Origin: Candidatus Methanimicrococcus odontotermitis
GTDB taxonomy: Archaea; Halobacteriota; Methanosarcinia; Methanosarcinales; Methanosarcinaceae
Direction: 5' to 3'
Assembly: GCA_031286065.1 (NCBI GenBank)
Contig: JAITUZ010000017.1
Coordinates: forward strand, 1 to 64,000
DNA: 64,000 nt
The notes below the pieces were generated by a model. It was not told the origin of the DNA. It searched no databases and saw nothing but the letters and a program-made list of their open reading frames with translations. Positions 44,338-63,438 of this stretch are shown piece by piece. The position numbers and the translations under genes are program-made. Each line of letters starts with the position of its first letter. The first letter of the stretch is position 1.

Positions 44338-44353
44338 AAGCCAACGTCCGGAT
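44338..44353. repeat. attL candidate (tRNA-Cys 3'-end fragment)
   Basis: AAGCCAACGTCCGGAT identical to 63366-63381. Confidence 0.85.
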
Positions 44354-44563
44354 GTGGACTGATTTGCATCAGCAAAATCGCCACGAGACGGACGACATAA
44401 AACTCATTTTGTAATTCGTCATTAGTCGCCGTTTCCGGACAAGGCTTAATTTAATACCACTTTTGTTTTCATAATCAGCCCTCGATAAAACACTGATTTG
44501 AAAACAATCCGGTTACCAGCCGGGGTATATTATTAAATACTGTTTATTGTAATATATAATTTT

Positions 44564-45376
44564 ATGCCATTTCTAATTCCGGTTTATTATTACAGACAAT
44601 GGAGATATGCGCAGCATTTAATTGAAACCGGCTATTGTAAGCGTGTAAAATGCATATATTTAAAAGGAAGAAGATGCGGTCATGGTCACCGACCACTTAT
44701 CATGGAAGAAGAACACGTATTTACATGCTTAAGTGTGAAAAAATCAAATCCTGCAAAAAAAGCCATTCGCCGAGTAAAAAGATTAATAAGGAATCTAAAA
44801 TCAGATATTGTTTATGGAACAAAAATCCGAAATCGCGGAACAGTAATCCTGAAAAACGAGCACGGAATAATTGTAGTACAGGAACCAAACGGAAGCTGGA
44901 GTTTGCCTGGCGGCGGGATAAACATAAATGAATCAGATATGGAATGCGCATTGAGGGAATTAAGAGAAGAAACCACAGTAAAAGGAAAAAATTCAAATTA
45001 TCAATTTGAAATTAAAGGTCGAATTCACAGAGATCGACATGGGAAACGTTATATAAATTTATATAAAATATTTGAAATCACCGAATATGAAAACAAACCG
45101 AGGCCATCAAACGAAATTAGAAAAATCGGATATTGGAGATCGGGAAAATACATGAGATTAACATCTACAACTAAAAAAATCCTGGATATATATCAAAGAC
45201 CATGGAGAACACCGCAATTCAGACAATATTGCAAGTCGGTAAACTGTGCGTATGGAGATGAGAACGGTTGCGGAATAGATAGACCGGAGTTAAATCCGCC
45301 GGATGAACCGTCAACATGTTTTGAAGATGGCGTTCCATGTTGTTATGATATGCGTTCATTGGATGACGGCCATTAA
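44564..45376 (+). CDS. Nudix hydrolase flanked by two related Cys-rich (putative Zn) modules
   Basis: Nudix box GGININESDMECALRELREETTV; YCKRVKC...CGHGHRP...TC and YCKSVNC...CGIDRP...TC. Confidence 0.9.
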   Translation: MPFLIPVYYYRQWRYAQHLIETGYCKRVKCIYLKGRRCGHGHRPLIMEEEHVFTCLSVKKSNPAKKAIRRVKRLIRNLKSDIVYGTKIRNRGTVILKNEHGIIVVQEPNGSWSLPGGGININESDMECALRELREETTVKGKNSNYQFEIKGRIHRDRHGKRYINLYKIFEITEYENKPRPSNEIRKIGYWRSGKYMRLTSTTKKILDIYQRPWRTPQFRQYCKSVNCAYGDENGCGIDRPELNPPDEPSTCFEDGVPCCYDMRSLDDGH

Positions 45377-45480: not shown

Positions 45481-45852
45481 ATGAATATGACACAAACAAC
45501 AATTAGCGGAGCTCCCGCTGTAGATTTTACAGGTAAAGTCATTGAATACATTGCATATGGCGCAGGCGCCAAAGGCAAAAGAGACGGACGATACGAAATT
45601 CTGAAAATGTCCGGAATTTCAAGCACACATTTTTTAGTACTCGGCCAAAATATCAATACAAAACTGTATGTTGTTTTTGAAGCCGACCTTTACTCATTTA
45701 ATACTGCTCCCACCCTTGTTTATCCGTCGTATTTAATCAAAAGTCCAGAATTTGCGGAACAAAATTATAATAACCGTCTAAACAAAATCAATCGGCTGAA
45801 AACTCCGATGGATGAAGTCCGAAATATTGACAGATTGCCGGCGGTGGTCTGA
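45481..45852 (+). CDS. Provirus hypothetical protein
   Basis: Operonic ORF, TGA stop, adjoining next gene. Confidence 0.65.
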   Translation: MNMTQTTISGAPAVDFTGKVIEYIAYGAGAKGKRDGRYEILKMSGISSTHFLVLGQNINTKLYVVFEADLYSFNTAPTLVYPSYLIKSPEFAEQNYNNRLNKINRLKTPMDEVRNIDRLPAVV

Positions 45853-46281
45853 ATGGTTCAGGATTTGGCAACATTGTGCCGGGATCTCGGAACAATTTTG
45901 GAAATGAAGGAATCCGTGTCTCTTTTAGAAATAGTCGCATTGACGGAGGAAAAGCAGCTTCGAATTAAGGCTGTCATAGATTTACTCATGCTGAAGGACA
46001 AAAGCATTGAAGTGAAAGGAACGACATACACCTACAAACCGATAAAACAAGATGCCATCGTTTTGTATCTTGTATTCACAACGAACTCAATCGTTGACTC
46101 ATTTTATTTTGACCCGGAAGAACCATCTCCGACTGCGGCAGAAATTGCTGAAAAGAATTTTGTGGCCGCTTTTCGGGATGAAAATGAAGCCATGGGTTTT
46201 GCGCACAACAATGGTTTTCAAGTGCTTAAAATTGAAGAATTTATTCCTGAAGAAGATGATGAGCGTCTGTTGGTGATATGA
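45853..46281 (+). CDS. Provirus hypothetical protein
   Basis: Operonic, end-to-start contiguous with neighbours. Confidence 0.65.
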   Translation: MVQDLATLCRDLGTILEMKESVSLLEIVALTEEKQLRIKAVIDLLMLKDKSIEVKGTTYTYKPIKQDAIVLYLVFTTNSIVDSFYFDPEEPSPTAAEIAEKNFVAAFRDENEAMGFAHNNGFQVLKIEEFIPEEDDERLLVI

Positions 46282-48753
46282 ATGACCATCAGACCAAATG
46301 GGAAAAAAGTTTCAACTCCGAATCCGGATGAAATTTTCAAAGACATGAATCCGAGAGTTTACACTAAAGAGGATTTAAAAAAACACGAAGACCGATTGAA
46401 AGAAATTTCAAAAGCCGAAACTGGATGGAAATTAGAAATCGTTGCTGTCCAGGAACAAACCATTGCTACATGTATCGGCTTTGAAACGCCACACAAAGGG
46501 CTTTAGGATATTCTTGTTGAATTTGAATATAATAAGAAAAAGAAAGGAAAAGCAAAATACACATTCAATTTCACAATTAACGAATTTAATGACAAACTGC
46601 AGCATGTTGAGAAAAATCTCAAAATCAATACCATAAACCCGATTGCAAAAGATGAAAAGTTTGAAAATGAACTGAAGACTTTTTTAACCGAAGCAGGCTA
46701 CAGCAAAAAGTATCTTCACATAAAAATGGCAACAGGAAGTATTCTGAGCATCTGGCAAGAATGGGAACCAAAAGAATTTCAAGCCTTATTTCCAGAAATG
46801 GTTTATAAATCTCCAAAATTAGATTACGCACCGGAAGATTGGATTTACCAAGACTGGATTATTGATTATCCGTATGATATCGATACGAGGAATGGCAAGC
46901 TTTACCGTTACATCATCAACAAAACAGAAGATGGCGATGACATCAAAGTACTGATTTCGGATTTGGTACTGGTTACAGCTGAGTACCAAGATATGGCCAA
47001 GGAAAATGAAATTTATTTCCGGTACCTAATCAGAAATGGCAAACGGAAAGTACAGACATTCATGATGTCAGCCGGAAAAATTTCAGACAAGGAATTCATG
47101 GATGACATTCGCCGCTGCATCATTGTGATTTATGGAGAGGAGAAGCATTTCAACCGATTTTTAACACTGTTCGCAATGCGGAACCGTGATGAAAAGAAAT
47201 TAGCCCATTATTACTTCAGTTCCCGGACAGGTTGGATCACACTTGAAGGAAAACAGTATTTCTTACTCGGAAGCCGTTTTTTTGACATAGAAGATAATTA
47301 TATGAGTCCGGCAGTTCCGACCGATGAGCTGGCCGGTCATGAGGAGTTTTTTGCCGGCATTGCAGATTCCGGAAACTATAGCGAATGGATTAAAGAATGG
47401 ATACCGGCTATTCAAGCTGAGGATCCGACCGGCTGTCAAATCTTCCTTGAGAACACAAACCTTTGGTTTACCGTTTATGCTCTTTCCGCTTCATTTTTAA
47501 TGAATATGTTTCCGGGAATGGAAAATACATTAATCATTAATAGCGGCACCACGTCTCGCGGAAAATCTACGATCGCAAAAATTGCGGCCAGCATGTTCGG
47601 AGACCCGAAAAAATTCATCACGCTCGGCAGCGGAACAGAAAACGGAATTTGGAATGCCTGGCTGAAATGGAATTATTTGCCGTCAATCATGGACGAATTC
47701 ACAAATACGAAACAAGAAATCAAAAACAAGATTCCGTATTGGTTCAGTGACGGGAAGGAAAAAGCGCGCTTAAATAAAGACGCGACAGCCAAAAGAACGA
47801 ATGAATTCCGTAAAATCGGCTATATTTCACTTGAGAATGATTTTGTGAATCAAGTCATGCGGTCAGGAGTCGATGCCCGTGTGATTCCCATTTATGACGG
47901 TTTGAATCTTCCGGACACTGAAGATGAAGAAGTCAACACCGCACGCGCAACACTCATTGATGATCTGGCCAGAGTGAAATCTCACAAATATTTCGGTTTT
48001 TACAAATATGAACTGCTCAAAACCATCAGCGAGGTGGGAACAGACAGAATAAATGAGATTTATGAAAGTGTTTCAAAAACATATACGACAACAAATGACA
48101 CTTTAACAGCGCGTCTGGGAGCAAGTTTCGCTCTGTTTCATGTTTCGGGGATCCTCGTTGAAATGACAAATGAACGGCTGCAGATCCGCAACCAAACTTC
48201 ATCTGAAGAACTTCATGAAATGGTTGAAACTCGCTGCAAAGAAATTCTGGATCAAGTCGTTCAAAATATCGGTGATCATGATTGGCAGGTTGTTCTGGCT
48301 GATGTCTTGGCCCGTGCGGACAACTCTGAAACTCGCACGCGCTGGCTGACGGACGAGCAATTGATGTACCCGTACCGCCCCGATGATGAATGTTCAATCC
48401 GATATCCGGACAAAATTGAGGCCTGGTTTTGCAATGATGGCATGATTGAATATGTCGATGTGGCACCGGATATTCTCAAAACGGTCTGCATATCAACAGT
48501 GGGAAAACCGTCAATGAATAATGTTTTAAAAGAATGGACGGACAAAAAAATAATCAAACCATTAAGAGATGACCAAAAAACAGTCATGCAACGCCATTAT
48601 GATGTTCAAGGCGGCAAAAAAGTCAGGACACCGGTTTATCGGATTAACCTTCAGAAAGCCAAAGAATTGACCGGATATGATCTGATGTATCGCCGGCGGG
48701 AATTGCTGGATGAAATTCAAAGTGATTTAGAAGATTTTGATTCTACAAATTGA
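46282..48753 (+). CDS. DUF927-like helicase/primase-type ATPase containing an in-frame TAG at codon 75 (candidate pyrrolysine)
   Basis: Track ORFs 46282-46506 and 46726-48753 share one frame with no other stop between; Walker A NSGTTSRGKSTIAKIAASMFGDP; DEFTNT. Confidence 0.82.
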
Positions 48754-48836: not shown

Positions 48837-49874
48837 TCACTCCTGTTCCGATAAATTATACTTTGATTTAACTCTTTTTTCAATATCCTCAATCGAAGGA
48901 AGAGTATCTTCAAACTCTTTTGGCAAGTATTCTGTTAATTTATATTCACTTACACCAATGGGTTTTGTCATATCTTTCAAGGCATATTCAGCAATTGTTT
49001 TATTTTTGTTCCGGCATAAAATAAGCCCGATAGAAGGATTATCTTTTTCCTTTTTTAAAAGTTCATCTACGGCTGAGAGATAAAAATTCAACTTGCCGGC
49101 ATATTCCGGTTTAAACATCCCTGCTTTTAACTCTATCACAAAATAACAATGCAGATTCGTATTATAAAAAAGTAAATCAATATAAAAGTCTTCACCGCCG
49201 ACTTCTAAATGATACTGATTTCCAAGAAAAGCAAAACCCGTTCCAAGTTCCAAAAGCAATTTGGAAATATTTGAAACCATCTCATTTTCAATGTCACGTT
49301 CAACCATCTGATCTTTTGCCTCAATAAAATCAAACCAATATGGGTCTTTGAGTGTTTGAACAGCAAGTTCGCTTTGTGCCATATCAAGCCGTGCCGGATA
49401 ATTCGTTGTTTTAGATGCTGAAATTTGGCGCTGGTATAAGTGGGATTCGAGTTGATGTTCTAATACTCCGACTGACCAGTTGTTTTCCGCAGTTTTTAAA
49501 ATATACCACTCCATTTGCCCTCGATCTTTCACTTTATCCAAAATGGACTTATTATGCGTCCACGGAATTTGTGCAGTCACTGACTGCACAAATTCAAGGT
49601 CATTATATGTTGACGCAAATTTTTGCATGTATTTTAAATTCCTCACGGAATAACCTGTAACATTTGGAAAGTCAGCTTTAATGTCCCGCGACAGATTTTC
49701 CACAAATTTATTGCCCCACCGCTTATTTTCAAGTATGATATTTCCGATATTCCAATATAGAGTAAGCAATTCCCGATTCGCGCCGACAACAGCCCTATAC
49801 TGTGCGGTTCTAATTTGAGACTTGATCTCCTCTAAAATACTAAAATATTCGGAATTATTTATCAGCATATGCAT
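48837..49874 (-). CDS. PDDEXK nuclease-domain protein (DUF1016/YhcG family)
   Basis: ARTAQYRAVVGANRELLTLYWNIGNII-like N-term, AQIPWTHN, FYIDLLFYNTNLHCYFVIELKAG...GLILCRNKN. Confidence 0.93.
   Translation of the reverse strand: MHMLINNSEYFSILEEIKSQIRTAQYRAVVGANRELLTLYWNIGNIILENKRWGNKFVENLSRDIKADFPNVTGYSVRNLKYMQKFASTYNDLEFVQSVTAQIPWTHNKSILDKVKDRGQMEWYILKTAENNWSVGVLEHQLESHLYQRQISASKTTNYPARLDMAQSELAVQTLKDPYWFDFIEAKDQMVERDIENEMVSNISKLLLELGTGFAFLGNQYHLEVGGEDFYIDLLFYNTNLHCYFVIELKAGMFKPEYAGKLNFYLSAVDELLKKEKDNPSIGLILCRNKNKTIAEYALKDMTKPIGVSEYKLTEYLPKEFEDTLPSIEDIEKRVKSKYNLSEQE
49565..49595. repeat. Perfect 15-bp inverted repeat (31-bp near-complete palindrome) inside the DUF1016 gene
   Basis: GAATTTGTGCAGTCA-C-TGACTGCACAAATTC. 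Confidence 0.95.
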
Positions 49875-50275: not shown

Positions 50276-50420
50276 AAGTATAAAAATACCGGTACAGATA
50301 TAAAATGGTTATGTGAAAATAAAGGAAACTGCAATCATTTTTCAAAAAGTGTTATTTTATAATAAAATAATACTTTGAATTCACACTTGATAAAAAACTT
50401 ACAAAAATTGAAAAAAATAA

Positions 50421-50721
50421 CCATGACAACCATGACAACTTAAAAAATAGGCATATTGCTATTGATAGTTCACTGATGCTTTTTTGATTTACTGTTATTG
50501 TTTTTTTTGTCATGGTTGCATACCATGACAATACCATGACAACCATGACAGAACCATGACAACACCACGACAAAAACAAAGTTGTCATGGTTGTCATGGT
50601 AAAAAATAATGTTGTCATGGTTCCAAACCATGACAAAAAAACAAGCATTAGAAGGATGAAAAGAGAGCGGCAAAAAACAGAATCTGACGGAATCATTTAA
50701 TGTTGTCATGGTTGTCATGGT
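50421..50721. repeat. Iteron-like array: 13 exact CCATGAC/GTCATGG copies plus one variant, in nested inverted arrangement
   Basis: Copies at 50421,50430,50509(-),50523,50534,50543,50554,50584(-),50593(-),50614(-),50628,50705(-),50714(-); variant CCACGAC at 50565. Confidence 0.95.
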
Positions 50722-51025
50722 GAAAAACACATCATTTTTATTTTTTTGAAAAAACTGAAAAAAGCTGAAAAACCGATTTGTGTTACTCCGGAAAAATAAA
50801 AAGACGAACGAATGAGACTTTTAAAAAATAGAGATTCAGAAAAAAGACAAAAAAATTCTGCATTTTATTCAAAAAAAAGACGAAAATTTGATAAAAAATT
50901 GATTTTTTATTATTACAAAAAATAACCGATTGCGTTTTTAAAAATTTTATTCAGGATTTTATTTCGGAAAGAATAAAAAAGAGATGAGGAGACACGAAAG
51001 TATAAAACAGGAACAGGAGAGCATA

Positions 51026-51535
51026 TTATAAAAAATAAACCAAAACTGACAATAAAATATTTCCAAACGTGCAGCTGATCAAAGCGGCCGGTAAAAATCC
51101 GACAAGTCCGGGCGCCGGGCGGTCAGGCTGAAGAAACCGGAACAAAAGCAAGATAGGAACTGACAGAATCATAAAATTGCAAACAATGTCAAGAGCCGGA
51201 AGTGTCCCGATTCCGGGCAAAATCAAACCATCCGGATAAACCGGCAAAAATAGAATTAACCCGGAAAAGATTTTGACATCAGCCGCGCCGATTGAACCGA
51301 ACATGACAGCACCAGCAGAAAAAACATAAGATAGGACAAAAAGAATGATACCGATTATTATTTCGTGAAATGTCACCGATTTTAAAAACAAAAAATCAAT
51401 AAAAATAAAACAAGATACGCAAATCAAAAAAACGCTTAAAAGCAACTTATTTGGAACGCGCCGGGTCTTAATATCCAGCGGCATGAAAATAAAAGCAATC
51501 GACATCATAAATAAAACTGAAGCAATTGTGAACAT
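51026..51535 (-). CDS. Prepilin/preflagellin peptidase-like aspartic protease (A24 type)
   Basis: DIKTRRVPNKL and GxHyD-type GAADVK motif in multi-TM protein. Confidence 0.8.
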   Translation of the reverse strand: MFTIASVLFMMSIAFIFMPLDIKTRRVPNKLLLSVFLICVSCFIFIDFLFLKSVTFHEIIIGIILFVLSYVFSAGAVMFGSIGAADVKIFSGLILFLPVYPDGLILPGIGTLPALDIVCNFMILSVPILLLFRFLQPDRPAPGLVGFLPAALISCTFGNILLSVLVYFL

Positions 51536-51541
51536 GATTTA

Positions 51542-51907
51542 TTACTCCCGGATTCGGACTTCTTTTAAAAACGCTTCAAGGGTTTCCCTCAAAAGGCAGC
51601 TCATTGAACAGCCGATCTTCTCGGCATCACGCTTCAGATCATCCCGCATCTCGGGCGAAACCTGCACCAAGAGAACTTTCCATTTTTTGGCCGAAATTTG
51701 ATCCTTTTGATTGCCGGTGTCGGTCGAAAAATCATGGTCATAATTTTGAAGTTCTTGATGTACCCGATTCCAAACCAGCCTGCAGACGGCTGCCCGGCTC
51801 ATGTTCATCAACTTTGCTTTTCGGTCCAGCTCCGCGGCAGTTGAGCGGCTGATCATGATTCTTATCTGGACTTTTTTGTTCGTTTCAGGCGCCGGTGTTC
51901 CGGCCAA
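51542..51907 (-). CDS. DNA-binding regulator with two tandem ribbon-helix-helix-like domains
   Basis: VQIRIMISRSTAAELDRKAKLMNMSRAAVCRLVWNRV and KVLLVQVSPEMRDDLKRDAEKIGCSMSCLLRETLEAFL. Confidence 0.72.
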   Translation of the reverse strand: MAGTPAPETNKKVQIRIMISRSTAAELDRKAKLMNMSRAAVCRLVWNRVHQELQNYDHDFSTDTGNQKDQISAKKWKVLLVQVSPEMRDDLKRDAEKIGCSMSCLLRETLEAFLKEVRIRE

Positions 51908-51972: not shown

Positions 51973-52080
51973 ATTATACAATGCGGTTTAAATAGGAAAT
52001 ATCAGCATTATTGTAATATAATGAATTTTGAAGATTAACATTATACAATATTGTATAAATGCATTCGTTATTGTATTAAT
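51973..52080. promoter_or_regulatory. Divergent regulatory region with perfect 18-bp palindrome TTATACAATATTGTATAA (52041-52058) and extra half-sites
   Basis: ATTATACAAT at 51973, palindrome at 52041, ATTGTA motifs near 52010 and 52069. Confidence 0.7.
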
Positions 52081-52220
52081 ATTGTTTGCCTGAAAGGGCA
52101 GGAGTGATACAAATGACCGTATTAGTCAACAAATCAACAATATTGACGGAAATTTATTGTTCAATTCTCATGATTTGGACAACAGTTCAAAGGAAGGTAA
52201 CAAATAAACTGAAACAGACG

Positions 52221-52559
52221 ATGTCAAACTGGAGAACAGTCATGAGCATCGCTGTTGCGAACGCTTATTCACCGATTAACGGCGCAAAGACCATTTACAA
52301 AACATTTTATGCGGAAGATGCCGTTGAGCGAGGATCTCTAACCGATGCTGTTGTCGGCCTATTCGTTTTTGGTATGGTTTTGGTTGCGGCATACATCGGT
52401 ATCGGCATGGTTGAGCCCTATTTACCAACAAGTGATGGAACGCTTGATGCCGATGCACAGAAGACGCTTGACACCATCCGCGCAGCTCTCGGCATTGCCG
52501 GCGTCTGTATGATTTTCATTTCACTTGGTTTATTGATTGCGACATTGCGCAGCTGGTAA
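52221..52559 (+). CDS. Candidate major capsid protein (two-TM, spindle-virus VP1-like); the track start 52086 is also possible
   Basis: ERGSLTDAVVGLFVFGMVLVAAYIGIGMVEPYLP...AALGIAGVCMIFISLGLLIATLRSW: two hydrophobic helices with short loop. Confidence 0.55.
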   Translation: MSNWRTVMSIAVANAYSPINGAKTIYKTFYAEDAVERGSLTDAVVGLFVFGMVLVAAYIGIGMVEPYLPTSDGTLDADAQKTLDTIRAALGIAGVCMIFISLGLLIATLRSW

Positions 52560-52575: not shown

Positions 52576-52869
52576 ATGGCGATGGATGGAATTCTTTATT
52601 CTTTATTTTCGGCAGTCGCGATTCTCGGCGTCTGGATCGGCATAATTGAATTCCGGCTTTCCCGGTCAACTGACGCGGTCATTTTTCCCGGGACATCTCT
52701 CCTTTTAACAATTTTATTGATGATTTCATCAAAATTTGTAGAAACCGAACTGTTCAGTCCGGCTGAAAGTAATTTCATATTTGCTTTTTGGCTCTGCATG
52801 TTCATTTTAAGCTTTGGATTAATGTTTGTCATGGCTGCCGGAACATTCCGGTCTGAAGGAGTTAAATAA
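52576..52869 (+). CDS. Small three-TM provirus protein
   Basis: Start at MAMDGILYS with upstream AAGGAAG; TAATG overlap with next gene. Confidence 0.7.
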   Translation: MAMDGILYSLFSAVAILGVWIGIIEFRLSRSTDAVIFPGTSLLLTILLMISSKFVETELFSPAESNFIFAFWLCMFILSFGLMFVMAAGTFRSEGVK

Positions 52870-53336
52870 TGTCTGAAATGGGAAATCAATCGGATTACGC
52901 CGGACAAATTACACCGGAAGATATTGTGAAATTGAGGCAAGCCGGCCTCGGAGCCGAAATTTCGAAGTTGTTTCTGGAAGATGAATTTGTCGAAGATATG
53001 ATCTCTCCGGAAGTCAAACCTTATTTTGATGCAATCCGAAAAGTCGGCATCGGACAGTATGATAAAAAAGATGTCGAGAAGCTGTTGAAAAAAATTGACT
53101 CGATGAAAACGACATTCATCATGTCATCAATGGAATCAGAATACACATGGCAGCATGAGCGTGAATTTACGATGCTGAGTGTCCTCGCGATTAAAAACAC
53201 AAGCATGGGAATTGACGGCACATTCCTGAAACGTGCATTCGGCAGCATTCAGGAAACGAATTTGGTTCAGACCATGAACAGTCCGCAGCAAGCGCGGCCC
53301 GGATTAATCGCTTCATTTTTCAGTAAAAAACGATAA
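52869..53336 (+). CDS. Provirus hypothetical protein
   Basis: Operonic ORF with start/stop overlap. Confidence 0.7.
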   Translation: MSEMGNQSDYAGQITPEDIVKLRQAGLGAEISKLFLEDEFVEDMISPEVKPYFDAIRKVGIGQYDKKDVEKLLKKIDSMKTTFIMSSMESEYTWQHEREFTMLSVLAIKNTSMGIDGTFLKRAFGSIQETNLVQTMNSPQQARPGLIASFFSKKR

Positions 53337-53361: not shown

Positions 53362-54384
53362 ATGGATTCATTGTGGATTTGGACAACGTTTTTCTTTGGA
53401 ATGGCATGCGGACTGTTGTTTATTTTTTCCATCGTTTATATAAAATGGAGCGGCCCTTACAGCTGGGTTATTTTTAAGGCAAGGCTGAACGGATACCGCG
53501 TCAGTTGGTTTATTGATAATCATGGTGAAGTCCATCCGGAAGCCGTAAAAGGAGAATTCGGCTATCATGCGGCTGATGCAGGAATTTTCCTCCCGGATCC
53601 GGACAATCCGGTTTCAACCGACCGTGGAAGACACAAAGGCGGTGTTTTTGACACAAACATGGCCGCCGGAATCAATTTTATTTTGATGAAAGCCGCAAAA
53701 AAACTTTCAAAAACAAATACTAACGGGCACACAGAAACAGTCAGCGGAATAAATCAAACGATTATTGAGTCGAATGAACTGGCGGAAGTCAAAGCCGGAG
53801 AGTTCGAAGAAGAAATGTTAGAGGAGCTGGCTGATGCCGGCGGACAAGCTGACGCAATGATTGTTTCGGCGAGAGAAAAAGCGTTGGATGAGCTGAAAAG
53901 TATCAGAGAAGAATTTTATAACTCAGAGGAAGTTACCGATGAGGATTTAAAAAAGAGACTTGAAGACGCTTTTGAAATTATTTATGCTTCAGTGACCGAA
54001 GAATTCACTGAGGAGTCATCGAGTGAAAAAATTGCCGAGAAATTAACGCCGGTTATTGAAAAATATACAAACAAAGTCGAAAAGCTTAAAAAAGAGTTTG
54101 GAGACCGGCTTCTTTTGAGCGACACTGAAATTAAAGCGCTCCGTCATTATTATGTATTGAACCAGCCGCAATACGTTGAGAAAAAGCTTCAGGCATCGGT
54201 CAATGAAGCTGTTTCGCGCGAAAAGAACAATATGAAGACATTCATGATGATTGCCGCGTTTGTCATTGTTGCATTTCTTGCCGTCGTTTTGGCAATTTAC
54301 TTACTCGGCAACGACCCGACTGTAATCATTCAAAACGGCTCGGATTTTATAACGGCCAATAATTCAACAACTCTTCCGATGTGA
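53362..54384 (+). CDS. Provirus membrane protein, TM at both ends with coiled-coil middle
   Basis: N-term FFFGMACGLLFIFSIVYI; C-term FMMIAAFVIVAFLAVVLAIYLL. Confidence 0.72.
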   Translation: MDSLWIWTTFFFGMACGLLFIFSIVYIKWSGPYSWVIFKARLNGYRVSWFIDNHGEVHPEAVKGEFGYHAADAGIFLPDPDNPVSTDRGRHKGGVFDTNMAAGINFILMKAAKKLSKTNTNGHTETVSGINQTIIESNELAEVKAGEFEEEMLEELADAGGQADAMIVSAREKALDELKSIREEFYNSEEVTDEDLKKRLEDAFEIIYASVTEEFTEESSSEKIAEKLTPVIEKYTNKVEKLKKEFGDRLLLSDTEIKALRHYYVLNQPQYVEKKLQASVNEAVSREKNNMKTFMMIAAFVIVAFLAVVLAIYLLGNDPTVIIQNGSDFITANNSTTLPM

Positions 54385-54869
54385 TAGACATGTCAGATAG
54401 TTTATTCTCTCAAAACCCGCATGGCGGTCTTTATTCCTCAGTCGGTCAGAAAGGGCTGTACCGGCAGGAAATATCAGTTGATGTTTTAATGTTTCTGGAT
54501 GCGAAAAAGAGTTTTTATTCTGATTTAAAAATAAAACATCGTTTTCCGGATTGTATTGAATCATACGAAGACCTGTGCAGTGAGATGTACGGAATTGTTG
54601 AAAAAGTGAAACCGATCCTGCTTGTCAAAAATAACAAAAAGGATGTTGATCCGCTTGGAATTGCCCTCGTTGATGAACTCGAACAATTCTTTGCATAGAA
54701 GGATTCGGGATTTGATCATAAAAAAATTGAATTAGCCGCAACAAATGCGAATTTGATTATTGAAATGGCGGATTCACTACTGAAAATGCTTTACAGTAAA
54801 GAGATTTACGATCCATCGATCATGTTTAAAATGGACAGTCCGGGAACTGCATACAGGAGGTCTATGTGA
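54381..54869 (+). CDS. Provirus hypothetical protein with in-frame TAG at 54696-54698 (162 residues if TAG is sense)
   Basis: Open frame continues KDSGFDHKKIELAATNANLIIEMADSLLKMLYSKEIYDPSIMFKMDSPGTAYRRSM to TGA overlapping the next ATG. Confidence 0.72.
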
Positions 54870-55783
54870 TGCCGAGCGTATTCTTGCGTGACGCTCTTGT
54901 GAAATAGAGAAAGGAATGCGAAGTAAAAGAACGGGAAGATGCCGAGGGAACGAAAAAACCTGTTCTTCGTTTGCTTCAAAAAAATTTGGAAGGGATTGTC
55001 CGCGTTTGCAAAGAAAATCGGCTCGATTGGCCGATTAACGTCGTCGGTGCGGAAGGTTCGGGAAAGTCAACGCTTGCCGCACATATTTCTCAAAAGCTGG
55101 CCGAGATGACCGGGCAAGAGTTGGATTTGGCAGAATCGATGATTTATTCGTTTGACGAGCGTGATCGCCATGGAGCTCCGCTTAAAAACTCATTGGTCGG
55201 ATTCGTTGACAAGTATCAATCAACGGAATTTAAAATATTATGGTATGATGAAGCTGTCACTGTTCTTTTTTCGGACGAACACGCAACGAGAGAATCAAAA
55301 GAGGCGAAAAAACTGTTTATCACGAAGCGTGACATGTGCCATTTTGATATTTTAGTATCACCGTCACCGTTTCACATCATCAAGGATATTCGGAGCCGCC
55401 GCGTTAAAACAATGATTTATTGCTTCATCATGGAAGATCCGGAAACAAAACGCTTCAAGCACAAATATGCCTGGTACTCGGCCGATAAAATCGTTTCAAT
55501 GTCATACGGTTCGAATCAGAAAAAAGCTGAAGTTCTGTTCCGCCGGCCGAAACAATTTATAAACGCGTTTCCGCCGGATTTTATTGAAGATTTCCCGAAA
55601 ATGACGCAAGAATTCGAAGAAAAATATCTTTTGACAAAGCGCACATTCATGAAAACGTATATTGACTCACTCGTCGGCGGCGAAAAAACAGCTGCTGATT
55701 TAGTGCTTCCTGAGAATTTCAGCTTTATACCGGTCTTTGACAAGCTGGTCGGCAAAACTGCCGGCGGCGAGGAGGCCGTCTGA
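54869..55783 (+). CDS. P-loop ATPase (candidate viral packaging/AAA-type) with in-frame TAG at codon 13
   Basis: AGGAGGT SD at 54855-54861, ATG 54869, MPSVFLRDALVK-TAG-RKECEVKEREDAEGTKKPVLRLLQKNLEG...; Walker A GAEGSGKST, Walker B-like ILWYDE. Confidence 0.82.
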
Positions 55784-58569
55784 TGGCATACGGAAAAGCA
55801 ACTGTTGTGGATTCGGGAAACTCATCGGGATCGCTTACCAATACCGTCCGCGAAGCCGCCGGAAACGCTGTACGAAATGCGCAGAATTCCGGCGCAAGCA
55901 AAGCCGATGTAATTAAAGCACGAGATGCGGCGAAAGAAAGTGTTTATGCCGGTGCTGTTCAAGCCATCAATACCGGTGGCAGTTATAAAGGGATGAGTGC
56001 ACAGCAGCTGCATAATGAGCTTTACGGCGGACTGGAACAAACGGCGACTCAACACGGAACACCGATTGCACTGGTTCAGAGCCGCAACCATTTGCAGAAC
56101 ATGCAAAATGCCGGCTTCTATGACGCTGAATGGAATCCCACAAACAAAGCATTGCAAGGGCAGATACAGAAGAACCAAAGCCAACCGCCAATAACTGTAA
56201 TAGATTTTAAGCCGGCGGCCGTCCAACCAAAAGAACTCAGCATCAGAGAGCGCATTAATTACGAATCGATGAGACTTAAAGAATCAAAGATTCCAATAAT
56301 AAGAGGAGCTGCGGCTTACCTTCCGAATTATTATGATCCGGAAGTTATGGAGAAAGCGAAAGAAAACAACATTGATTTTAATGAGGTTGCTTCGTCAGTT
56401 TCTTCCTTGATGGGCCCGATCGGTATTCTGAATATTTCAGAAAGTGATAAAAATCCGTTTCGAACTGACAAAAACAAATTGGTGGATGCGACTTTAGAGG
56501 GTCTTTTTTATGGATTTACCGGTGAAGATGTTTCCGGAAAAAGTGAAATCGTCCAAGCGGCCGGCAATCGCGGAACAAACTGGATTGATGCGAAGACAGG
56601 TGCTTTGCATGAGTGGTCTATGCGAAATTTGGACGGGCGATTCTATGAGATTGGATCATTTGTTCGCGGCATGGTTCCGGATTCAATTGTCGGTGTCGGC
56701 ACATTGATTAGTGAAGGGACAAAGACAATTACAGCCGGCTTCCGGGAAGCGAAAAAATCAGGAGCAAACCTGACAGGAATCACCCGTGGTCAAGCGATGT
56801 CAACGTCTTTTGCCGGCATGCTCGGGTTCGGTATCGGCACAATTGCCGGCGGAACAGTAAGAGGAGCAATAGACGACCCGATTGCCTTTGCCGGCGGATT
56901 GATTGGAACCGGCGGTGCAGGCGGTATTGGGAAGTTGGGCATGGGAGTTGGGAAATTCAGATTGAAAGCTTTCAAACAAGCCGCAGGTAAAATTGATGTT
57001 TCACTCAAAGATTTGGGCGTTGATCCTAAAGTGATTAAGATGGGAGGAGATGTTTACAGACTTGAGGGGAAAGCAGCGTTTCCGGATGCTTATCCTGTTA
57101 AGACTGGAATTAAAATGCATGAAGGAGTTTCGATGCTGGAAAATGCAAAAAATCTCTACCCGGGGGAGAAATCCGGAAGCACCGCGATTATTCACTCAAG
57201 TCCAAAAAACAGAGGAGATATTTACAGTCCGCATGTCGGAAAGTCTTCGGAACCAGGCATGTTTGGAGCAGAATCACCTTCAATCCGATTTATGAAGATT
57301 CCATATTTTAAAAATGCAAAATTGGTCGGATTTTCAAATCCTTTCAGCCCATCTAAGTTAAATGAACTCAGTCCAAGAATTATGTTTATTGAGGGGAAAG
57401 GAATTAGATCACCAGAAGTCACATCAGGGGTTAAAACAAATAAGTTTTTACTAAATGATGCAGATGCTGGTTATTTCTGGACAACTCATAAGATGAGACA
57501 AAGAATTGAGAGCGGAAAGCTTGTAGAAGTAGAAGCTGTCGTTTCTCCAAAAACCACAATTTCGACCTACGACAATAAACCGTATTCTGATGCAACTCTT
57601 TACAGAATCGAATCAAAATACCGAACAACAGTTAAACAGCCGATTGATTTCCCCGGAATTAAAATGGATGTTGATTTAAAAGTGCCTGTTGAAAAATATA
57701 TTATGGTCACGGCTGATGATATGGCCTTAGTTCCAGTTTCGGCGCCGGCAAAAAAATCCAAGTTTTTTTCTCCAGATTCGCATGGAAAAGACGGTTCTTT
57801 GACTTATCCGGTCGGAACGAATATGAATCTTCACACGGGACCGAAACCGATTAGAACGGTCACCGAAATTTCAAAAAAAAACGGCAGCATCAAAGAAATG
57901 TTTACAGCCCGCCGAACAGCTTCAGCTGATGTTGTCAATAGGCATAAAGCCGGCATGGCTTCAAAAAATTATGATGCGAAAAAATTGTTTGAATCCGCCA
58001 AATCTAAAAAGACCGCGTCTGCCGAATCTAAACCGATTACATCTGCCGCGTCTCCAACCGCTGCGCGGATCAGCGAGCTGACGGACGGGAAAAATGCCGG
58101 CGATCTGATAAAAAAAACATCAAACACACAAAGCATCGAGGACTTGATTCGAAAAAAAGCACCACCGAAAACAAAAAAGTCGGACTCCGGAAGCAGCCGC
58201 AAATCACCAAAACAGCCGGCATATCCTCTTGTCGATTTAACATACAGCCCTTTGGGTGTCTCACGCGGCGCCAAATCCAAATCAAAGCCCTCTAATTCTC
58301 GCGGCGGTTACTACAGCCCGACCTCGGGGTATGGATACGGCAGCAGTAAAAGTTCATCTCCCGGTTATTCCGGATATGGAGGCGGCAAAAGTTCATCATC
58401 AAAAACGGCACCGTCTAAAGCAACAACTCGACCGATTGTACATAAACAGACATCAAAGAAATTAAAGAAAGAAGAACCAATCAGTCCCGCTAAACGGACA
58501 AAGAAAACCACGAAAAAATCAACAAAGAAAGAATTTAGGGTTAACCCGCTCAGGGGGCTGAAAATCTAA
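55783..58569 (+). CDS. Large provirus structural-type protein with Ser/Lys/Gly/Tyr-rich basic C-terminus
   Basis: 928 aa; central Gly-rich hydrophobic segment; TGATG start overlap. Confidence 0.7.
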   Translation: MAYGKATVVDSGNSSGSLTNTVREAAGNAVRNAQNSGASKADVIKARDAAKESVYAGAVQAINTGGSYKGMSAQQLHNELYGGLEQTATQHGTPIALVQSRNHLQNMQNAGFYDAEWNPTNKALQGQIQKNQSQPPITVIDFKPAAVQPKELSIRERINYESMRLKESKIPIIRGAAAYLPNYYDPEVMEKAKENNIDFNEVASSVSSLMGPIGILNISESDKNPFRTDKNKLVDATLEGLFYGFTGEDVSGKSEIVQAAGNRGTNWIDAKTGALHEWSMRNLDGRFYEIGSFVRGMVPDSIVGVGTLISEGTKTITAGFREAKKSGANLTGITRGQAMSTSFAGMLGFGIGTIAGGTVRGAIDDPIAFAGGLIGTGGAGGIGKLGMGVGKFRLKAFKQAAGKIDVSLKDLGVDPKVIKMGGDVYRLEGKAAFPDAYPVKTGIKMHEGVSMLENAKNLYPGEKSGSTAIIHSSPKNRGDIYSPHVGKSSEPGMFGAESPSIRFMKIPYFKNAKLVGFSNPFSPSKLNELSPRIMFIEGKGIRSPEVTSGVKTNKFLLNDADAGYFWTTHKMRQRIESGKLVEVEAVVSPKTTISTYDNKPYSDATLYRIESKYRTTVKQPIDFPGIKMDVDLKVPVEKYIMVTADDMALVPVSAPAKKSKFFSPDSHGKDGSLTYPVGTNMNLHTGPKPIRTVTEISKKNGSIKEMFTARRTASADVVNRHKAGMASKNYDAKKLFESAKSKKTASAESKPITSAASPTAARISELTDGKNAGDLIKKTSNTQSIEDLIRKKAPPKTKKSDSGSSRKSPKQPAYPLVDLTYSPLGVSRGAKSKSKPSNSRGGYYSPTSGYGYGSSKSSSPGYSGYGGGKSSSSKTAPSKATTRPIVHKQTSKKLKKEEPISPAKRTKKTTKKSTKKEFRVNPLRGLKI

Positions 58570-58805
58570 TGGTCAGTTATCAGCTCCTCGTCTTCGGAAT
58601 CGGTCTTGTTGTATTCGGAATAGCGTTTACTTTCATTAATGACCAGTTATATGACATGACGGCAGCCGGTCTGATCGGATATACCGGGATTAATGAAACA
58701 TTCCTATTCGGCCAATATTGGCTGGATTTTTTATGGGGACTCTTCCCTTCATTGGTTTTTGTCACAGGTGGTCTGTGGTGTTCAGCAAGGGCAATGAAAG
58801 GGTGA
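58569..58805 (+). CDS. Small two-TM provirus protein
   Basis: TAATG overlap; hydrophobic helices. Confidence 0.68.
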   Translation: MVSYQLLVFGIGLVVFGIAFTFINDQLYDMTAAGLIGYTGINETFLFGQYWLDFLWGLFPSLVFVTGGLWCSARAMKG

Positions 58806-58811
58806 TTCAAA

Positions 58812-61220
58812 ATGAAATTAATAAAAACACTCCTCACCCTTTTATTTTTATTCATATTGATGCAGACAGCGAACGCCGAAACGGGTTTGTATGAATTCCC
58901 TGTCGGAGTCGGCGACAACACGCTAGACTTAGGAAACGCATACAACGGCTCATATGTCAATTCCATAACCGGAACTGTTTATGAATCTTCTTTGCATTAT
59001 CAGGAAGTAACAATTAATGTTCCGGACACTGATAAGATAGGAACAAAAAGAACGCTGAAGCTGGATGTTCTGTTTACTGACGGAATGAAATTGGATTTTT
59101 CAGATGTTTATTTCACGGATCGGAATTTTAATATTATTCCGATATATCGTGACATGAATTCGACTGTCAATGGGAGCAATGCTACTTTTTATTTGTATTT
59201 CGACAGCATCGCGGCTCAAAACGATTTATACATGTGCTGGGGAGTCGGGTCGAATCCAAAACAAGATTCGTATGTTTTTTTGGCAAATTTTGGAAATGGG
59301 GAGACATATACCACCAGTGTCAATTTCAACGTGTATCGTCCGGAGAGTTTATACAATATTTCGACATCGCCTGCGTCTACTTTTAATTATACGAATGCTG
59401 AAGTTATTTTCTCGATGAGTGGTTCCGGCTCGAATCATAATACAGCGCCATGGCTAAGACTGAAAATAAATTCATCAAATAGTTCTGCTCTCACTAATTC
59501 TGTCGGTACATGGGTTGAGGGCGGCCGATTGTTTTTAATAACGTTTCCAGGTTGGATGCAGACAGAAATTCGTCCAATTTCCACAACTATCATCAAACTT
59601 GAATCTTCTCTGATAAATTCGACTTTAGTTGGAAATGCAAATAATATAACATCAATCTGGGATCTTACAAATAATGACTGGACTAATGTTTTTAGTTTTA
59701 ATCGCGGGTCCGGTTCCATAACCATTTATTCATTTAAAACATATAATTCTACAAATTTTACCGCAAGTTTCGGAGAAATTAATAAACTCGTAGCTTCGGA
59801 ACATCCGATTACAATCTCTTATCCAGCTTCCGATTTTTCGACATTGGATTTTGAATCAGAGTGGGTCGGAAATTTAGAATTTAGAATAAATTATGACCCC
59901 CATGCCGTTTTGTCAACGCCGAACGATGCAACATTCCAAGAAACCGCCATTCTGCAATTTGAAATAAACCCGCAAAATCTGCAGCTGCCATATCAGATCG
60001 CTCTTGACGACACTTTTTTCAGCATCGTCAATTCCGGATCATCGTCCGGAATCATTTCAGTAAAGTTGCCGGCAAACAATTATTACTGGAGAGTGATGCA
60101 GCCGGACGGAAATTATTCGGATATTCGGACGTTTACGGTCACAGAACCGGGACCGATTCAGGGGTCATTAAATTTTACAATAAGAAATGAACTGACAAAC
60201 ACATCTGTGTCGGCAACCGTTACGATTTCAAACAACACAACAACTTTACAAAAAACAGGTTCTACTGTTACATTTAACAGTTCCGAAGTCACGGCCGGCA
60301 ATTACTCGGTTCGTGTCAATTCAACAAACAATTCAACGCGGTTTTATGAAGTCGTTAGTCCGGGAGATTATACTCTTTATATTTTACCGATAACGGTGAA
60401 CACATCCGTTGTTTATTTTTCGTTGATTGACAACACAAATCAGTTTCAATACAATTCGACCAAACTCGAAATCATAAAACAGACAACGAACGGTTCAATT
60501 GTTGTCACAAGCAATTATTTTGATGCGTCCGGCTTTGTTGTCACAACTCTTAATCAATTCGATAATTATATTCTTAAAGTCGTTTCGGATTCAGGAACTG
60601 AAAGAATTTTGGGAAACTACATTCAGGCCGGTCAAACATCAATCCAACTTGTCATTTCAGAAATTATCTTGAAGGATCCTGATGTTAACATACACGGAGG
60701 ATTCACTTACAATCTGAAGAAATCTCTGGAAGGAATTAAACTTGAGTGGCGGAATCCGAACAGTGATGCATTAACTGAGCCATTTACGTTCAAAATCTTA
60801 AAGGATGGGGAGCAGGTGATGAACATTACATCGACCGCACCTTTCGGCCTAATTCATTATATTGATACAGGCGGCGGCGAACTTGATCCGAATGCGACAT
60901 ATGAGATCATCTTTGAGGCCGAAACAACCGGCGGAAAAATTAGGGTTCACGAATTCTACAAAATCAGCGGTGAAATAACCGGAATTAACTTTGACATTAT
61001 CCCGGCACCAGTGAGAATCATTGTGACAATTGGACTGCTCGTTCTTGTGGCCAGCCAATTCAACACAACAAACGCTAAATTTGCAGCGGTTGTCGTATCA
61101 GTTATTGCATTATTCTTATCGTTTGTTTCATTCTTTCCGGTCGGAAATGCAATATTGGTTTTCGTTTGGCTGCTGTTCATTGCAGTCGTTGCACTGAAGA
61201 CGAGCAGGAGGTTCGGATAA
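58812..61220 (+). CDS. Large exported adhesin/spike-like protein with C-terminal TM segments
   Basis: Signal peptide, N/T/S-rich ectodomain with Ig-like repeats, C-terminal hydrophobic helices. Confidence 0.75.
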   Translation: MKLIKTLLTLLFLFILMQTANAETGLYEFPVGVGDNTLDLGNAYNGSYVNSITGTVYESSLHYQEVTINVPDTDKIGTKRTLKLDVLFTDGMKLDFSDVYFTDRNFNIIPIYRDMNSTVNGSNATFYLYFDSIAAQNDLYMCWGVGSNPKQDSYVFLANFGNGETYTTSVNFNVYRPESLYNISTSPASTFNYTNAEVIFSMSGSGSNHNTAPWLRLKINSSNSSALTNSVGTWVEGGRLFLITFPGWMQTEIRPISTTIIKLESSLINSTLVGNANNITSIWDLTNNDWTNVFSFNRGSGSITIYSFKTYNSTNFTASFGEINKLVASEHPITISYPASDFSTLDFESEWVGNLEFRINYDPHAVLSTPNDATFQETAILQFEINPQNLQLPYQIALDDTFFSIVNSGSSSGIISVKLPANNYYWRVMQPDGNYSDIRTFTVTEPGPIQGSLNFTIRNELTNTSVSATVTISNNTTTLQKTGSTVTFNSSEVTAGNYSVRVNSTNNSTRFYEVVSPGDYTLYILPITVNTSVVYFSLIDNTNQFQYNSTKLEIIKQTTNGSIVVTSNYFDASGFVVTTLNQFDNYILKVVSDSGTERILGNYIQAGQTSIQLVISEIILKDPDVNIHGGFTYNLKKSLEGIKLEWRNPNSDALTEPFTFKILKDGEQVMNITSTAPFGLIHYIDTGGGELDPNATYEIIFEAETTGGKIRVHEFYKISGEITGINFDIIPAPVRIIVTIGLLVLVASQFNTTNAKFAAVVVSVIALFLSFVSFFPVGNAILVFVWLLFIAVVALKTSRRFG

Positions 61221-61589
61221 ATGGAAACTTATAAAATTACAGTTTTTTTGATAATTTTGAATTATACAATCTTCGCATTTGCGGCACTTGGTGTTTTCCC
61301 GATAGAGTATCCGTATATCAGCGAATATATCGACCCGTCAACATTTTCCGGAAACGTTCCCGAAAATATCAGTTATGACAGTATCAGCTACGGCAATTAT
61401 ATTTTTGGCGATTTCATTCGAGCGCTTGTCATGATTGCCGCACTGCTGGTCATTGCACCGTTTGCGCTTGCGTTTTTATTAAACTCATTGGGCATTCCGA
61501 CATTGATTTCAACACTTTTGATCATCATGCTGTCAATTATTTATATCAAAGATTTGGCTGAGTTCATTGGAAACCGCATTATAAAATAA
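61221..61589 (+). CDS. Small multi-TM provirus protein
   Basis: Operonic, hydrophobic segments. Confidence 0.68.
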   Translation: METYKITVFLIILNYTIFAFAALGVFPIEYPYISEYIDPSTFSGNVPENISYDSISYGNYIFGDFIRALVMIAALLVIAPFALAFLLNSLGIPTLISTLLIIMLSIIYIKDLAEFIGNRIIK

Positions 61590-61604
61590 CAGGCGGCGAT
61601 TAAA

Positions 61605-61916
61605 ATGCTTGAATACTTCGGAGTTTATGATATGATGCAGACAGGCGATTACATGGATATCGCACTCCTTGCTTACATCCATACATACGGCATTGTATTC
61701 TGGCTTGCTATTTGGGCCGTGTTGATGATCATCCTGTACATTAAAAATGAAGATTTGACTTCCGTTATGGTTTTAACAGCGATAATGCTTACGGCAACCG
61801 GCGTTTATTCATCCCAATATGATTTCTTCCCGATTCAGGCGGTAGCCTTCGGCATCATCATTATCTGCCTGATTTCCGCTGGTGTTTTGTACAGATATTA
61901 TAACACAATGGAGTGA
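61605..61916 (+). CDS. Small multi-TM provirus protein
   Basis: Operonic, hydrophobic segments. Confidence 0.68.
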   Translation: MLEYFGVYDMMQTGDYMDIALLAYIHTYGIVFWLAIWAVLMIILYIKNEDLTSVMVLTAIMLTATGVYSSQYDFFPIQAVAFGIIIICLISAGVLYRYYNTME

Positions 61917-62194
61917 TTAATTTGGTTGTAGCTTCAAGACGAAAAGTGACATGGATAGAAGCCATTGCCGGCACACTTGTTGGTTGGACAGTCCTCTATA
62001 TCCTTTACAGCGCAATCATCCCGCACTTTGACAATTTAATGACAATGGCTTTGGGTTACGGCGTCCCGGAAGAAATATTGAATCAAATCCGGCTTTATTT
62101 AGTCATCGCGCTGATTATAATCGGCATTGTGCTTTTTTTGTATATGTTTCTGGCTGCATTACTGGTTGAGTTTGATCAATATCAAAGCTACTGA
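61913..62194 (+). CDS. Small two-TM provirus protein
   Basis: ATG/TG overlap with previous gene; hydrophobic segments. Confidence 0.65.
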   Translation: MINLVVASRRKVTWIEAIAGTLVGWTVLYILYSAIIPHFDNLMTMALGYGVPEEILNQIRLYLVIALIIIGIVLFLYMFLAALLVEFDQYQSY

Positions 62195-62288
62195 CAAGTA
62201 CCGGTTTTGACAATAAACTTTTTTTATTTTTTCCAAATGTATGGGATGTGGCGGGCTACCGCCGCATGAACAATTCGGAGATATAAAA

Positions 62289-63233
62289 ATGGAAAAAATT
62301 CTAAACCAATTCCATGTTTTTTTAATAAAACAAGGCAAAGACAAAAGAGTATGCAATTCATACAGAAATGATGTCCGGACATTCTGCGAAGTTTGCAAAA
62401 TAACAAATGTTGAACAATTGAATTTTAAAAAAGCTTCGGAATATGATCCGATTTTTTTGACTTATATCAATTGGCTGAAGGATGTCCGGAAAAACAAATA
62501 CAAAACAATGTGCAGAAAGCTTTCAGCCCTTGAAAAATTCTTTGCGTTTTTGGTCAGATATGATTTTATCATCATGGATCCTGTTCCAAGCTTCAGGCAA
62601 TTTAACATGCAAGAACACAAAACAGAAGATTCTGAAATGAGAATGCTGCCGGAACCAAAAGAAGTAAAAGTTACCCTAAAAAACAGTAACAACATCAAAC
62701 TTTTTTTCATGATCGCCCTATTGGCAAAATCCGGTGCACGCCGGCAAGAAGTCATTGATGCCGACCACGAAGATTTCAAAATCGAACGCAAAATCTGGGA
62801 AGTGAAAAGCCATCCGAAACGAACAGGCAAAAAAATACCACTTGATGATGAATTGATTGCCATTTTCAAAATATATATGAAAACCAGAACGGACGATTGC
62901 CCTGCACTGTTCATTGGGAAAAGAGGGCGGCGAATAAATAAAGACGCACTGCGTGAAGACCTGACGGATGTATTCAGGAGATGCGGACTGTATAAAGACG
63001 GCGGTAAACTGGACGAACGTCTGACGCCGCATTGCTTCAGACATTTCCAAAATACACAATTGGATTTAAGCGGCCTCCCGAGAGGAATTTTAACAGAGAT
63101 TCGAGGAGATCAGCGGAAAGACATTGACAGCTGCGAAAGATACATCCATTACAATGAAAAGAACCTCGTGAAGATTTATAACCAACATAAAATAAAGCTT
63201 GTTGGAAAAAGCATGCGATTACCGAGAAAATGA
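62289..63233 (+). CDS. Tyrosine recombinase/integrase
   Basis: AKSGARRQEVIDA (catalytic R), HCFRH (HxxR), CERYIHYN (Y); adjoins tRNA; start at MEKILNQF preferred. Confidence 0.92.
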   Translation: MEKILNQFHVFLIKQGKDKRVCNSYRNDVRTFCEVCKITNVEQLNFKKASEYDPIFLTYINWLKDVRKNKYKTMCRKLSALEKFFAFLVRYDFIIMDPVPSFRQFNMQEHKTEDSEMRMLPEPKEVKVTLKNSNNIKLFFMIALLAKSGARRQEVIDADHEDFKIERKIWEVKSHPKRTGKKIPLDDELIAIFKIYMKTRTDDCPALFIGKRGRRINKDALREDLTDVFRRCGLYKDGGKLDERLTPHCFRHFQNTQLDLSGLPRGILTEIRGDQRKDIDSCERYIHYNEKNLVKIYNQHKIKLVGKSMRLPRK

Positions 63234-63365: not shown

Positions 63366-63381
63366 AAGCCAACGTCCGGAT
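63366..63381. repeat. attR candidate overlapping 3' end of tRNA-Cys
   Basis: AAGCCAACGTCCGGAT identical to 44338-44353. Confidence 0.85.
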
Positions 63382-63438
63382 TTGAACCGGAGTAGATTCG
63401 CTCTGCAGGCGAACGCATAGCCGCTCTGCCACGTTGGC
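63367..63438 (-). tRNA. tRNA-Cys (GCA)
   Basis: Cloverleaf: acceptor GCCAACG/CGTTGGC, anticodon stem TTCGC-CTGCAGA-GCGAA, T-arm CCGGTTCAAATCCGG, U73 discriminator. Confidence 0.95.

Follow-up and report, generated by a model that had tools for sequence, protein, structure and literature searches.

Which protein is encoded by the short open reading frame (ORF) at positions 52,221 to 52,559 of a 64,000-nt stretch of Candidatus Methanimicrococcus odontotermitis DNA (in what follows, the window), and how would the polar N-terminus of that protein be removed? Spindle-shaped viruses are, to our knowledge, unique to archaea, and according to our analysis, it is very probable that the ORF codes for the coat protein of such a lemon-shaped virus, integrated in the genome of a methanogen. 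In the open-access literature, we found no description of spindle-type proviruses in Methanosarcinaceae. The trimming and assembly of the coat proteins of these viruses are an open question, the protease that cuts SSV1 VP1 being stated as unknown (PMC5748691), and a prepilin/preflagellin-type peptidase (A24) gene that neighbours the ORF suggests the kind of enzyme that may trim them.

Start and architecture of the probable capsid gene

The translation of 52,221 to 52,559 reproduces, letter for letter, the protein quoted in the preliminary description, whose reading frame was correct. The start assigned there had to be revised: the frame is open back to 52,086, a ribosome-binding site was looked for directly upstream of 52,221 and not found, and the ATG at 52,113 is preceded, 4 nt upstream, by the Shine-Dalgarno-like sequence GGAGTGAT. 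Based on this sequence, the gene probably starts at 52,113 rather than at 52,221, so that the major capsid protein (MCP) precursor (52,113 to 52,559, + strand) would comprise 148 aa instead of 112 aa. In the 112-aa version, hydrophobic segments begin near residues 43 and 88, with a polar loop between them, and the protein stops after the second helix, with no globular C-terminal domain. The two hydrophobic helices and short polar loop noted earlier are evident in the translation and recur in the syntenic homologues, and the protein has the small size and high hydrophobicity of a VP1-like MCP. The predicted mature protein (52,335 to 52,559, + strand), delimited by the motif RG|SLTD, would consist of 74 aa with both hydrophobic helices.

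A conserved module headed by the capsid gene

The comparison of the capsid ORF with Pfam, PHROG and NCBIfam gave nothing above cut-off; a pilin or non-structural family, either of which had been named beforehand as evidence against a capsid protein, did not appear above cut-off in the profile searches. As a single query, the window protein retrieved only itself from its own genome and nothing from the viral contigs (viral_contigs), and the capsid family profile gave chance matches only in the PDB. Syntenic capsid homologues were found both elsewhere in the Methanosarcinaceae and in several further families of the same phylum. A leave-one-out profile, from which the window protein was excluded, recovered this protein with E=3.4e-4 among 1010 ORFs, the homologues being statistically dependent on one another; the runner-up ORF of the window (E=1.6) was about four orders behind.

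Downstream of the capsid gene, and also on the + strand, lie the genes for a small membrane protein, which is the conserved next gene (52,579 to 52,869; three hydrophobic segments in most homologues, 3TM), a soluble protein of 155 aa that is conserved in the relatives (52,869 to 53,336), a membrane-anchored protein of 340 aa (53,362 to 54,384), a protein of 160 aa (54,390 to 54,869) and a P-loop ATPase (54,869 to 55,783). These are followed by the genes for a 928-aa protein with weak similarity to 730-aa proteins at the loci L010-L012 (55,783 to 58,569), a 78-aa protein (58,569 to 58,805), a secreted spike-like protein of 802 aa with a C-terminal membrane anchor (58,812 to 61,220) and three small membrane proteins of 122, 103 and 93 aa (61,221 to 62,194), of which the 122-aa one is well conserved.

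A search with the module ATPase identified five relatives and a second element within the same host genome, and gave no match in the viral contigs and phages. The order MCP-3TM-155-340-160-ATPase is kept at L009, L010, L011, L013, L014 and L093, and parts of it in other families; after the ATPase, the 78-aa, spike and 122-aa proteins are present in the neighbourhoods of the ATPase relatives, the short L014 contig excepted. The two-helix protein is invariably first in the module of these relatives, so that the description of the ORF as the first gene of a structural operon is true of the provirus and of the relatives with the full module. The L014 single-sequence search, together with the profile search, detected the capsid family in 30 of 392 genomes and 17 of 137 genera of the phylum, a large addition to the spindle-type proviruses; among the relatives, the family was present in 19 of 199. 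Several of these genomes and relatives keep further module genes. An IMG/VR match (L032), where the other module genes were not found, was judged spurious, and a match in G446 (L048) was set aside as noise.

Several of these loci have features of their own. The second element of the host genome (L014; G000:C34:1-9516) is also of the spindle type but distinct from the first, and it carries an A24 gene of its own. In the G088 element (L009:6354-9934), TatC-like and TatA-like ORFs and a 673-aa ORF with a Tat-type signal were recognized by sequence reading, all of them inserted within the structural module. Tandem capsid-type genes in one element, which recall the fusellovirus VP1/VP3 pair, are located at L047:9656-11273 and at L115:7411-8289. 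The region L043:1336-4159, which covers the spike gene of that element, reads X/N (masked in the collection).

Relationship to His1 and to the fuselloviruses

Compared directly, the window protein shows weak similarity to any known MCP, and the link runs through intermediates. The homologue at L014 aligned with His1 ORF21, which we take to be the His1 coat protein, with a score of 90 and z=11.8 relative to shuffles that keep the hydrophobic pattern, and the other family members gave z values of 2.0-3.6, all six members tested reaching at least 2.0. Among 50,697 phage records, His1 was the only match of the L014 homologue at E<=10, with an E of 4 that is not significant alone. When the capsid family profile was built without His1, ORF21 was the top match (hhalign 28%, E 6.4e-4; hmmsearch 6.8e-5), whereas no significant profile match was obtained to SSV VP1 (hhalign probability 2-4%). 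At the family level, the homology thus reaches an established spindle capsid, that of His1, to which the capsid protein is nearer. The likeness to fusellovirus VP1 proposed in the preliminary description holds for the architecture and for the presence of [KR][GA] before helix 1, but not for the sequence statistics.

The module ATPase aligned with His1 ORF16 and with SSV B251. In the comparison with B251/DnaA-like ATPases, it matched phrog_5484 (E=6.8e-5) and gave an hhalign probability of 61% (E 8e-5 over the length), a result that general P-loop similarity could also explain. Among the viruses compared, the His1 ORF16 ATPase and the His1 ORF27 spike are the best matches of the corresponding module proteins, the spike weakly and at its C-terminus. 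With capsid homology to His1 at the family level and a position as first gene of a conserved module that includes a related ATPase, the label of spindle-virus MCP appears well supported. The best explanation, in which we have considerable confidence, is that the ORF encodes the MCP precursor of a spindle-shaped provirus; the A24 step is graded apart.

Two other assignments within a viral element were weighed. In the first, the MCP would be the two-helix protein of 78 aa (from 58,569) or of 93 aa (from 61,913), and the product of 52,113 would be a minor, VP3-like protein. Both of these families are conserved with two hydrophobic segments each, and in the comparison with the His1 capsid protein, z rises to about 3 for two of the five 78-aa homologues. 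However, z was at least 2.0 in six of the six capsid-family members tested, with one at 11.8, and in none of the 93-aa family; the enlarged capsid-family profile has His1 ORF21 at its top; and the capsid gene resembles that of SSV VP1 in coming first, ahead of a multi-TM gene, all of which makes this assignment improbable. Pleolipoviruses combine small membrane proteins with a C-terminally anchored spike, and both are present here, so that a pleomorphic virus, with the 52,113 product as a small envelope membrane protein, was also considered. This reading seems still less probable, since no PHROG match to named structural families was found and the capsid, ATPase and spike match His1 best (the spike weakly, and with pleolipoviruses outside the comparison set).

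The preferred spindle-virus reading does not place the element in a described family. Like the window protein, His1 ORF21 has two hydrophobic helices, a short polar loop and sequence similarity at the family level; the His1 capsid protein, however, is leaderless, and the His1 genome is linear with its own PolB, whereas the window element is integrated as a provirus and encodes a tyrosine integrase and a DUF927 protein. The VP1 proteins of fuselloviruses (SSV1, SSV2, SSV19, ASV1 and others) likewise have a variable leader, [KR][GA] and two hydrophobic helices, and their gene is likewise followed by a multi-TM gene and, some genes later, by a P-loop ATPase gene. The 340-aa protein resembles SSV B277 in position and architecture; the pairs 340/B277, 160/A153 and 3TM/A82 were not significant by profile, and the fusellovirus-style gene order was therefore not used as proof. 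Unlike in fuselloviruses, no VP2-type gene was identified and the att site does not split the integrase gene. We filed the element in neither Fuselloviridae nor Halspiviridae because the defining features of each are absent: instead of an integrase split on integration, there is a complete gene within the att repeats (62,241 to 63,233, + strand; PF00589, E=1.7e-13), and instead of a protein-primed PolB and a linear genome with terminal repeats, there is an element integrated with att repeats and no polymerase family among the proviral genes.

The leader and its predicted cleavage site

The mature N-terminus of SSV1 VP1 is a conserved Glu, and the residues just before it are essential (PMC5748691). 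The recognition motif of PibD is (Lys/Arg)-(Gly/Ala)-cut (PMC7347861). In all the leadered SSV-type VP1s examined, we identified [KR][GA], with the conserved Glu next and the helix after it, and in SSV1 the motif coincides exactly with the known cleavage point; the Glu at +1 of SSV VP1 departs from the PibD consensus. The capsid protein of the window has a class III signal of this kind, [KR][GA] ahead of a hydrophobic helix, and no other protein of its provirus has the motif in front of a hydrophobic helix at the N-terminus. Within the family, 7 of 10 members with a leader have [KR][GA] immediately ahead of helix 1, compared with 4 of 107 control helices of other proteins (Fisher p=7e-7, relatedness left uncorrected), and the motif is also found in many wider homologues, in forms that include RDERA, KDKKG and DEKA. 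Because RA also stands ahead of helix 2 in the window protein, a lone instance of the motif carries little weight. Counting against the cleavage model, L014 and L093 have their own A24 yet no K/R at -2 (DESAA, DESG), the leader site of L010/L011 is NEAG, and a leader is absent in His1 and L009. The suggestion that the N-terminus is removable was strengthened by the SSV1-like cleavage motif and by the homologue at L009, which, as His1, is without a leader; the cut itself is predicted.

Archaeal type IV prepilins and archaellins likewise have a [KR][GA] motif directly before a hydrophobic helix and are A24-processed (PMC7347861). The class III-like signal and the neighbouring prepilin peptidase would also suit a type IV pilin encoded by a mobile element. 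Unlike the archaeal prepilins and archaellins, however, the window protein has a second membrane helix, no globular domain past it and no Pfam pilin match: the best Pilin_N score was 13.6 bits, in one homologue, below the cut-off of 25.2, on which ground an ordinary pilin was rejected. Families of the pilus motor and platform are absent among the proviral proteins scanned, and, together with the family-level homology to the His1 capsid gene, this makes such a type IV pilin very improbable.

A prepilin-type peptidase gene beside the capsid gene

The A24 gene (51,026 to 51,535, - strand; PF01478, E=2.8e-6, 34.5 bits with a cut-off of 26.5) is divergent from the capsid gene and forms one operon with the gene of a ribbon-helix-helix regulator (51,542 to 51,907, - strand), both being transcribed away from the capsid gene. 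Between the divergent operons, we identified a perfect 14-bp palindrome, ATACAATATTGTAT (52,043 to 52,056), a candidate site of the regulator, of which this is the sole exact copy in the window; a copy with three mismatches is located at 52,063-52,076. Like PibD/FlaK, the proviral A24 matches PF01478, is multi-TM and has two catalytic aspartates (the D of DIKTRRVPN and the D of GAADVK), which are invariant in 18 of 18 aligned A24 sequences; the proviral copies differ from PibD/FlaK in being short, with 127-170 aa. The L014 copy is under the PF01478 cut-off (20.4 bits), and the proviral A24 profile had no match in the PDB; the assignment was based on PF01478 and the catalytic residues. In the A24 tree, the host copies form a clade (support 0.85) with the proviral copies outside it, and a single-sequence search found no A24 in the phage records.

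Comparison of approximately 36 loci revealed an A24 gene at seven MCP loci, window included. At six of them (window, L013, L014, L093, L113 and L115), it lies at most about 1.2 kb from the MCP gene, where 0.05 would be expected (P about 1e-11; 2e-5 if counted as three lineages), and at L104 the distance is 4.4 kb. The pair of A24 and regulator is also present in L014 and L093, and in L013 a CopG-like ORF precedes the A24 gene (sequence reading). In these three loci and in the window, A24 is on the regulator side, outside the structural operon, whereas in L113 and L115, which belong to a different family of the order, it is located directly upstream of the capsid genes on the same strand.

Proposed maturation of the capsid precursor

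Based on these observations, the leader would be cut at RG|SLTD by a prepilin-type peptidase, probably the product of the divergent 51,026-51,535 gene; the mature 74-residue two-helix protein would leave the membrane and, with the ATPase and other module proteins, would form the flexible, spindle-shaped shell. We somewhat favour removal of the leader at this site by an A24 enzyme. It is less likely, though by no means far-fetched, that the protein is a capsid protein and that A24 has a different function, for example the modification of host pili or archaella against superinfection, the leader being cut by the host or left uncut. The placement of A24 beside a ribbon-helix-helix-like regulator on the opposite strand in the window, L013, L014 and L093, in the fashion of lysogeny genes, would suit such a role, as would the two A24-bearing elements with no K/R in the leader and the requirement of pilins for SSV9 infection (PMC7217056). 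On the other hand, the same-strand position of A24 immediately before the MCP genes in L113 and L115, the restriction of the motif to the capsid protein in the window provirus and the exact coincidence of motif and cleavage in SSV1 argue for processing of the capsid precursor. The disruption of pibD has been studied for SSV9 (PMC7217056), and its result fits the model of A24 processing but is confounded because infection needs pilins.

This provirus family offers a concrete enzyme candidate and an exactly predicted cleavage position, and its Methanosarcina relatives can be worked with. A broader reading would extend the model to the capsid precursors of spindle-shaped viruses in general, fuselloviruses included: they would carry a class III signal like that of prepilins, and a type IV prepilin peptidase would mature them, in most viruses the PibD/FlaK of the host and in some, such as the present one, a dedicated A24 encoded by the virus. 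The chances of this reading as a whole seem to us even. All 11 genomes tested carry one A24 gene or more, so viruses without their own copy could use that of the host. On the broader reading, spindle capsid proteins would follow the route of pilins in trafficking and in extraction from the membrane, and the two may have a common origin.

Borders, genetic code and further genes of the provirus

The host genome (1.75 Mb, 79% complete) is that of a small-genome Methanosarcinaceae. The provirus spans approximately 19.05 kb, with a 22-nt repeat (20 identical positions, 16 of them consecutive) at both ends and the tyrosine integrase gene adjoining. The left attachment-site-like repeat (44,338 to 44,359) is identical at 20 of 22 positions to the 3' end of tRNA-Cys, and the right one (63,366 to 63,387) lies inside tRNA-Cys (63,367-63,438, - strand). 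Three proviral genes contain an in-frame TAG: those of the ATPase (54,869-55,783) and the 160-aa protein (54,390-54,869), whose homologues align on either side of the TAG, with one each, and that of a DUF927 helicase-like replication protein of 823 aa (46,282-48,753, + strand; PF06048, E=6.5e-21), where one is read through. The host genome encodes PylS, and none of 39 long ORFs of the window ends in TAG; from these observations, TAG is probably decoded as an amino acid, presumably pyrrolysine, and the provirus seems to have adapted to a code of the pyrrolysine type.

Two small genes of no family (123 and 142 aa; 45,481 to 46,281, + strand) precede the DUF927 gene, and a NUDIX gene (44,564-45,376) is located just within the left border. 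The provirus carries a DUF1016/YhcG PDDEXK nuclease gene (48,837-49,874, - strand) as cargo. At 50,420-50,727, direct and inverted copies of ACCATGACAACCATGACA/TGTCATGGT are clustered in an iteron-like arrangement, possibly a replication origin or a regulator site.
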